Source of the DNA: Cytobacillus oceanisediminis
Lineage (GTDB): Bacteria > Bacillota > Bacilli > Bacillales > Cytobacillaceae
Length of the DNA stretch: 64,000 nucleotides
Assembly (NCBI RefSeq): GCF_022811925.1
Contig: NZ_CP065511.1
Coordinates: 1,233,501 to 1,297,500, forward strand
Direction: 5' to 3'
Positions 20,651 to 21,399 of the stretch are shown here, in pieces. A model generated the notes under the pieces. That model saw only the letters and a list, made by a program, of their open reading frames with translations. It did not search any database and had not been told where the DNA came from. Every line of letters starts with the position of its first letter. Position 1 is the stretch's first letter. Made by a program: the position numbers and the translations under genes.

Positions 20651-20811
20651 AATCAGGCTCCCTTCATTCTTGAATTAACATTCTTTCACTATTTTCCCCT
20701 TGGACATCTGGACTATGTACGGCTGTTTCACTCAATATTTTCCGTTCAATTTTGTCTTTGTTCGCATAAGTATATATAGCAGAGACGATAGAGGAAGGGA
20801 GGGGGATAGCC

Positions 20812-21399
20812 GTGAATGATTCGAATGCTTCCGTATTCTGTGCGGGCCGGGGAGATCGTGCTCCGGTATTTATTGCAGATGCTGTCATTGATCATCAAAT
20901 AAAAAAGGTCAATTTGGAGAATTATATTGGAAAATGGGTGCTGCTGTTTTTTTACCCGAGTGATTTCACATTTGTCTGACCGACAGAATTGGCGGCGGTC
21001 GCCGCTGTGAATCCTTATTTAAAAGCCTTAAACTGTGAAGTAATGTCCATCAGTACGGACAGTGTATACGCCCATAAAGTATTTAAGGAAACATCTCCCT
21101 CTTTAAAAAATGTAAATTATCCAATGGTAAGCGATCGAACCCATCAAATAAGCAGAGCTTATAGGGTTTTGGACGAAAAGTCAGGAGCGGCGGTCAGGGC
21201 ATCCGTTTTTATCGATCCTAATGGCATTATTGCGGCGAAGCTCATTTATCCTGGAGAAGTCGGCAGAAATCTGCATGAACATGTCAGAATCATGCAGGGA
21301 ATTCAATATGCACAGCAGACAGGGAAAGGTGTACCGGCCAATTGGCAGCCTGGCCAGACCGGGATTAACATTGATCCGAACTTAATAGGAAAAATCTGA
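20812..21399 (+). CDS. Selenocysteine-containing AhpC-type peroxiredoxin (in-frame UGA at the peroxidatic position)
   Basis: One frame of 195 residues runs from GTG 20812 (after GGAAGGGAGGGGG) to TGA 21397-21399, broken only by TGA at 20977-20979, codon 56. Reading that codon as U gives [14 protein letters not shown], where all AhpC/Prx1 proteins have the peroxidatic Cys (FTFVCPTEL). Sequence similarity to AhpC is unbroken on both sides ([26 protein letters not shown]). A bacterial SECIS-like hairpin follows the UGA. The usual resolving Cys (VCPANW) is replaced: KGVPANW has none, so it would be a 1-Sec enzyme reducing peroxides with an external thiol. The alternative is a Cys-to-stop mutation. 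Another Cys (residue 10, VFCAGRGD) is unusual. Confidence 0.85.
20980..21012 (+). promoter_or_regulatory. Bacterial SECIS-like stem-loop
   Basis: Starting right after the UGA, GCGGC and GCCGC pair over 5 bp (plus two G-U pairs) around the loop GGUC at 20997-21000. The loop begins 17 nt after the UGA. In E. coli fdhF the SelB-binding loop also reads GGUC and begins 18 nt after its UGA (recalled from established work). Position and loop agree with SelB recognition. Confidence 0.75.

Follow-up and report, generated by a model that had tools for sequence, protein, structure and literature searches.

Selenocysteine (Sec) peroxiredoxins are treated as an accepted family in passages of three papers (PMC9312934, PMC13188914, PMC1088965), and PrxU of Eubacterium acidaminophilum is cited in PMC13188914. 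A 2016 survey gives, in the excerpt that concerns them, 91 peroxiredoxin selenoproteins in 78 organisms (PMC5029168), and the branch described here may be partly among these; the relevant part of a 2006 survey reports three selenoproteins in the Bacillales (PMC1794560). Peroxiredoxins (COG1225) and peroxiredoxin-like proteins (COG0450) among the Sargasso Sea selenoproteins, as a passage of PMC1088965 describes them, are of the same known kind, likened here by description alone. An AhpC selenoprotein of Blastococcus saxobsidens, again likened by its description alone in a section of PMC5330540, resembles the present gene in being annotated as AhpC and in carrying Sec followed by a bacterial SECIS element, whereas its Sec is encoded by UAG and its host belongs to another phylum. 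No paper on the present branch was found in a literature search for Bacillaceae Sec peroxiredoxins, whose long result lists were covered in part, and a term search of the deep-Sep paper (PMC12013277) gave no occurrence. Sec peroxiredoxins are thus a known kind, of which the present branch would be a Sec-only variant.

The window, by which is meant the whole 64-kb stretch of DNA analysed (G000:C1:1233501-1297500), lies in a genome of two contigs and 5.58 Mb. It carries a gene that we hold, with high confidence on comparative grounds, to be a Sec peroxiredoxin of the AhpC type whose UGA would be decoded as Sec by means of a hairpin with a GGUC loop (Table 1). The first-pass annotation had described a single AhpC-like frame with a UGA in place of the catalytic cysteine, and the frame is indeed open throughout except for that one TGA, in the context FTFV-U-PTEL, until a second TGA at 21397-21399 terminates it. 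The protein scores 119.9 bits against the Pfam model PF00578 (AhpC-TSA), for which the gathering score is 26, and is on that test a peroxiredoxin; the solved structures that match it best in sequence are 2-Cys peroxiredoxins, and in the two shown the resolving cysteine aligns with Val174. Among 20 loci of the genus, the median dN/dS is 0.053 upstream of the UGA (167 of 190 pairs usable) and 0.035 downstream of it (165 of 190). A bacterial selenoprotein gene is recognised by an in-frame UGA where a cysteine belongs, flanked on either side by coding similarity, and the window gene shows this pattern.

Table 1. Features at the predicted Sec peroxiredoxin locus, in positions of the window.
Feature	Positions	Strand	Description	Basis
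CATA box, putative	20765..20768	+	conserved, promoter -10-like, 47 nt ahead of start	
Shine-Dalgarno-like GGGAGGGGG	20797..20805	+	ahead of GTG start	sequence
Predicted Sec-containing AhpC-type peroxiredoxin gene	20812..21399	+	195 residues from a GTG start; Sec is codon 56	orthologues
UGA predicted to be read as Sec	20977..20979	+	peroxidatic position of PxxxTxxC/U motif	TGA in 101/101 distinct loci
C-terminal ORF	20989..21399	+	136 aa, TTG start at hairpin edge; often sole form in database entries	
Bacterial SECIS-type hairpin	20991..21006	+	6-bp stem, loop GGUC at 20997-21000	geometry, conservation
Val174 codon	21331..21333	+	position of resolving Cys in 2-Cys peroxiredoxins	alignment

With the ordinary cysteine form of AhpC the window protein shares the AhpC-TSA domain, the active-site frame and about 34-42% identity, and it differs in having Sec for Cys and no resolving cysteine. 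The curated models for the two nearest kinds place it in neither, as it scores 176.2 bits against NF040737 (PrxU; cut-off 270) and 159 bits against TIGR03137 (AhpC; cut-off 272). All six scored members, as far as shown (the window protein, L219, L166, L145 and L069 are named), fall below both cut-offs; in a diverse alignment of 37 rows every row has PrxU and AhpC as its commonest profile matches, L219 having been scored against both models from outside that alignment. By the curated tests the window protein is neither PrxU nor AhpC. Other Bacilli hold a second kind of Sec peroxiredoxin, with the motif FT[FY]V-U-ATE, in L148 (G042) and L236 (G199), which score 398.2 and 373.4 against the PrxU model. 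These two are like the branch in their Sec at the peroxidatic site, in a hairpin with a GGUC or AGUU loop and in the absence of an xCPA motif from both; they are unlike it in that they fall on the opposite side of the deepest split drawn in the tree, and the window protein is under the PrxU cut-off. In that tree of 80 rows, which omits 15 loci without the motif, a split supported at 100/99 sets 47 branch rows, with the very long Sec row L225 among them, apart from the 30 rows of Cys proteins and the PrxU-like pair. L225 (G505) is a very divergent Sec copy, with FSTI-U-PTELSAVAD and a GGUC-loop hairpin, and forms a long branch within the Sec side.

The window gene is not a lone oddity; to judge from its relatives it is one of a wide, predicted Sec-only branch in the Bacillaceae and related Bacilli. 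Nine named records hold genes 94-97% identical to it; five belong to C. firmus or Cytobacillus oceanisediminis, the remaining four are under other names, and the host is accordingly taken to be Cytobacillus or a close neighbour. Within the genus, 20 of 36 genomes (the window's own included) carry a copy that is at least 90% identical in the C-terminal part, and in one further genome the best copy reaches 58%; TGA is present in all 21 genus loci. In the GTDB family, 96 of 193 genomes carry it (match better than 1e-60), at 99 places, each with TGA, and the next family matches after this branch, near 1e-38, are ordinary AhpC-like proteins. These 99 places, together with loci from Aquisalibacillus elongatus and Evansella clarkii (L166, L167), make up the 101 distinct loci that were read by codon, L031, which duplicates L115, being left out, as were L148 and L149 as members of other families. 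The site, which had been proposed for comparison among orthologues as Sec or Cys, is TGA in all 101 and never TGC or TGT; the frames are kept on both sides, and TELAAVA follows one residue past the Sec in every one. The peroxiredoxin active-site motif is PxxxTxxC/U, and its proline is usually fixed; the window gene has the motif, and across the branch the threonine is present in 101 of 101 loci and the proline in just 73. A loose pattern, GxxxR, occurs in 100 of 101. The Sec form of the motif, PxxxTxxU, is given in a passage of PMC13188914.

Beyond the family, 15 of 398 genomes sampled from the class gave a match at 1.9e-60 or better, all 15 with TGA at the site, three of them from the window's own family (G000 included). 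Among the weaker matches listed, those inspected are a mixture of a few more Sec copies (L225 and the PrxU-like L236) and cysteine AhpCs, the latter from 6.6e-53 on, and a per-match count of TGA gives no position, as L231, listed with one TGA, has Cys at the site. In L224 the Sec-site motif was not found, and among the matches listed no cysteine member of the Sec branch was seen. One distant copy among the 15, L223 (G375), has the Sec motif followed by WAAVAA and a frame that is seemingly lost further on, as by a frameshift, and is possibly a decaying gene.

In the bacterial SECIS criteria, as passages of PMC10778597 and PMC1088965 state them, the apical loop lies 16-37 nt past the UGA and a G stands within a small loop. 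The hairpin that had been pointed out at the window gene, with a GGUC loop 17 nt past the UGA, proves to have exactly that spacing and a stem of five Watson-Crick pairs and one G-U, and it is conserved in the 101 loci; nowhere else on either strand of the window is GGTC the loop of a perfect 5-bp stem. The element was judged here by geometry and by covariation over loci. In folding energy it is only moderately better than shuffled sequence (z -2.17 for 21 nt; -1.34, -1.45 and -1.87 for longer stretches), and the weight of the evidence lies in its conservation across the 101 loci and not in folding energy. Because the protein, Leu-Ala-Ala-Val-Ala-Ala over the stem codons, fixes most of the stem letters, the information sits in third codon positions. 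The first and the third of these alanine codons pair at their third bases in all 101 loci (G-C 57, A-U 35, G-U 9, A-C 0) against a shuffle mean of 81.3, and none of 2000 shuffles reached 101; in the distant copy L220 this informative pair is U-A. The loop codons are GCG-GTC in 98 of 101 loci and GCA-GTT in three, and elsewhere in the branch genes GCG accounts for 233 of 1368 alanine codons and GTC for 394 of 1445 valine codons. Over 36 loci, codon entropy is 0.70 bits in the hairpin versus 1.74 at 13 other conserved Ala, Val, Gly, Pro or Thr codons.

Taken over the whole stem, 99.2% of cells are paired versus 95.7% in shuffles and the covariation score is 0.247 versus 0.166, neither value being reached in 500 shuffles, while the number of pairs with double changes (one) and of pair types (five) is not above shuffles (of 500, 382 equal or exceed the former and all 500 the latter). 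A change on both sides is seen at just one of the six stem pairs, and most of the covariation rests on it, so that the hairpin is conserved among relatives with compensatory change at a single pair. With the partners slid by three columns, 92.9 and 87.0% of cells still pair, because the stem codons repeat, and the covariation scores are 0.12-0.13. All of these counts are made over related loci and are inflated by kinship. The letters at the same place are unrelated in the 12 cysteine AhpC genes that were inspected.

A UGA of this kind would call for a Sec-inserting apparatus, and the search for selA, selB, selC and selD that had been proposed found all four in the genome above curated cut-offs. 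The tRNA-Sec scores 60.3 bits (cut-off 47), whereas the genome's 21 remaining matches are ordinary tRNAs that stay below the cut-off, and ARAGORN likewise calls a tRNA-SeC with anticodon tca; profile searches gave 551.6 bits for selA (cut-off 267.9), 377.3 for selB (242.25) and 421.8 for selD (125). Outside the window, selD (G000:C1:2612275-2613201, L151) has an in-frame TGA of its own in LSTKGG-U-GCKIGPEDL, and with the window gene this brings the selenoproteins predicted in the genome to at least two. Formate dehydrogenase does not appear as a further user of Sec, with an in-frame stop in none of the ten matches listed for this genome, three of which are over the cut-off. The region around the tRNA-Sec (L041, G000:C1:2228001-2246000) is seemingly phage-like, with a terminase-like sequence noted by eye, and the neighbour of the tRNA may be a prophage.

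The gene also follows the machinery across the family. SelA, taken as present at E better than 1e-90, was found in 172 of the 193 genomes, and the gene occurs in 96 of these 172 and in none of the 21 without SelA (Fisher p 2.8e-7, uncorrected for kinship). A tRNA-Sec over the cut-off was likewise found in 172 of 193 genomes, G192 being counted among the other 21 by elimination; it went undetected in two of the 96 gene-bearing genomes, G078 (66% complete) and G161 (85%). Given that 76 genomes have SelA and lack the gene, the Sec peroxiredoxin is not the sole reason that the machinery is kept. The reading of the locus as a selenocysteine peroxiredoxin is thus supported by Sec machinery, conserved TGA and hairpin together.

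Strong comparative evidence favours a first step in which SelB with Sec-tRNA(Sec) would recognise the GGUC-loop hairpin past the UGA and place Sec at residue 56. The Sec selenolate would then, by the usual chemistry of peroxiredoxins, reduce H2O2 or organic peroxides and become a selenenic acid, a peroxidase step predicted from the family, from the threonine ahead of the Sec and from the GxxxR pattern. How the enzyme might be re-reduced bears on the resolving cysteine, which had been reported missing and is so branch-wide, the xCPA motif being found within the last 60 residues in 0 of 101 loci and its place being taken by valine in the window gene. An N-terminal FCA-like cysteine occurs in 75 of 101 loci, the window gene included (Cys10), and some cysteine in the C part in 44, which leaves room for a resolving cysteine in many members. 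It is possible that Cys10 is an atypical resolving residue that forms a selenenylsulfide with Sec56; this we regard as unlikely, since 26 of 101 loci lack an FCA-like cysteine, some genera having tyrosine there, and 20 of 101 have no cysteine at all in the region examined (the last 50 residues on the N side and the C part). With the resolving motif absent from all loci and these 20 devoid of cysteine, a one-Sec cycle like that of glutathione peroxidase, in which an outside thiol (bacillithiol with bacilliredoxin, or thioredoxin) would re-reduce the enzyme, is the most economical mechanism for the branch as a whole and, on balance, the one we think likely. Bacillithiol is a candidate donor because BshC, of bacillithiol synthesis, is present in the same genome (462.3 bits, cut-off 27), and thioredoxin is as good a candidate. 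The one-Sec enzyme would work alongside an ordinary cysteine AhpC in the same genome, which passes TIGR03137 (338.2 bits, cut-off 272).

The first-pass annotation expected gene callers to split the gene and to report the C-terminal part alone; with that part as query, 117 of the 120 listed homologues (of 141) are indeed 137 aa or shorter, whereas the expectation fails for the RefSeq entry WP_225003809.1, 'peroxiredoxin' of Cytobacillus spongiae, which is full length across the UGA, so that NCBI annotation treats at least that copy as coding. This copy lies at 486630-487226 of NZ_CP089998.1 (L243), a 690 kb plasmid record. The prevalence of a 136-aa form in the databases for many species would be expected if the UGA terminated translation and a separate C-terminal product arose by internal initiation, a reading that is very improbable: no Shine-Dalgarno sequence is seen ahead of its TTG, the fragment would be without the peroxidatic residue, and the N-terminal part with the peroxiredoxin motif is likewise under strong constraint.

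With the full protein as query, 30 of the 120 hits listed (of 5753) are at least 150 aa long; 15 of these are cysteine AhpC-like proteins at 43-48% identity, and 15 carry tryptophan at the Sec site (P0013, P0019, P0080, P0121-P0127, P0129-P0131, P0135 and P0137). The latter might suggest that UGA is read as tryptophan, or by general readthrough, in the branch at large. Yet the gene's own terminator is UGA, the gene tracks SelA, and the tryptophan proteins, which are metagenomic, stem from contigs of 594-2308 bases, where TGA was probably called with genetic code 4; to our knowledge tryptophan is not plausible as a peroxidatic residue, and this reading too is highly improbable. That the gene is an ordinary AhpC disabled by a nonsense mutation, as its in-frame stop, its lost resolving cysteine and the decayed look of the distant copy L223 could be taken to indicate, is scarcely credible against a TGA in all 101 loci, low dN/dS on both sides of it, a conserved hairpin and a full set of Sec machinery.

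The upstream region may hint at when the enzyme is made. A CATA-N(2-3)-A/T-A/T pattern occurs within 75 nt upstream in 76 of 91 loci, mostly 40-58 nt ahead of the start, 10 of the 101 loci having been left out because their start was unclear or their upstream sequence too short; a crude shuffle gave 18.6 for the same 91, an excess that is overstated because the loci are related. Mother-cell sigma factors recognise a -10 element with CATA at its core. Comparison by eye with promoter consensuses showed no clear -35 partner for it. Seven loci were inspected for neighbours, and a gene that we take to be hutH lies upstream in four Cytobacillus-type loci and in Bacillus canaveralius, with the same short downstream ORF in four of these five; both are absent beside the gene in Aquisalibacillus and Evansella, and no redox partner gene was seen next to the Sec peroxiredoxin at any of the seven.

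Spore-formers of the Bacillaceae type are largely aerobic. Aerobic bacteria rarely retain selenoproteins according to a passage of a 2026 review (PMC13188914), and a figure from the 2016 survey, by which 40.4% of Sec users are aerobic (PMC5029168), tells against such rarity. The CATA box, if real, would link the enzyme to sporulation. One may speculate, though we think it doubtful, that endospore-formers keep the one-Sec branch for sporulation under a mother-cell-type -10 element, that it is bacillithiol-dependent in the manner of a bacterial glutathione peroxidase, and that together with a Sec-containing SelD it helps to explain the Sec machinery of many aerobic Bacillaceae. The split database entries can now be listed for correction, and the hairpin offers a naturally occurring example of codons frozen by an RNA element. 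A predicted Sec-only antioxidant enzyme in 96 of the 193 genomes of one spore-former family, in a genome that also has the cysteine version, would provide a system for asking what Sec buys under oxygen.
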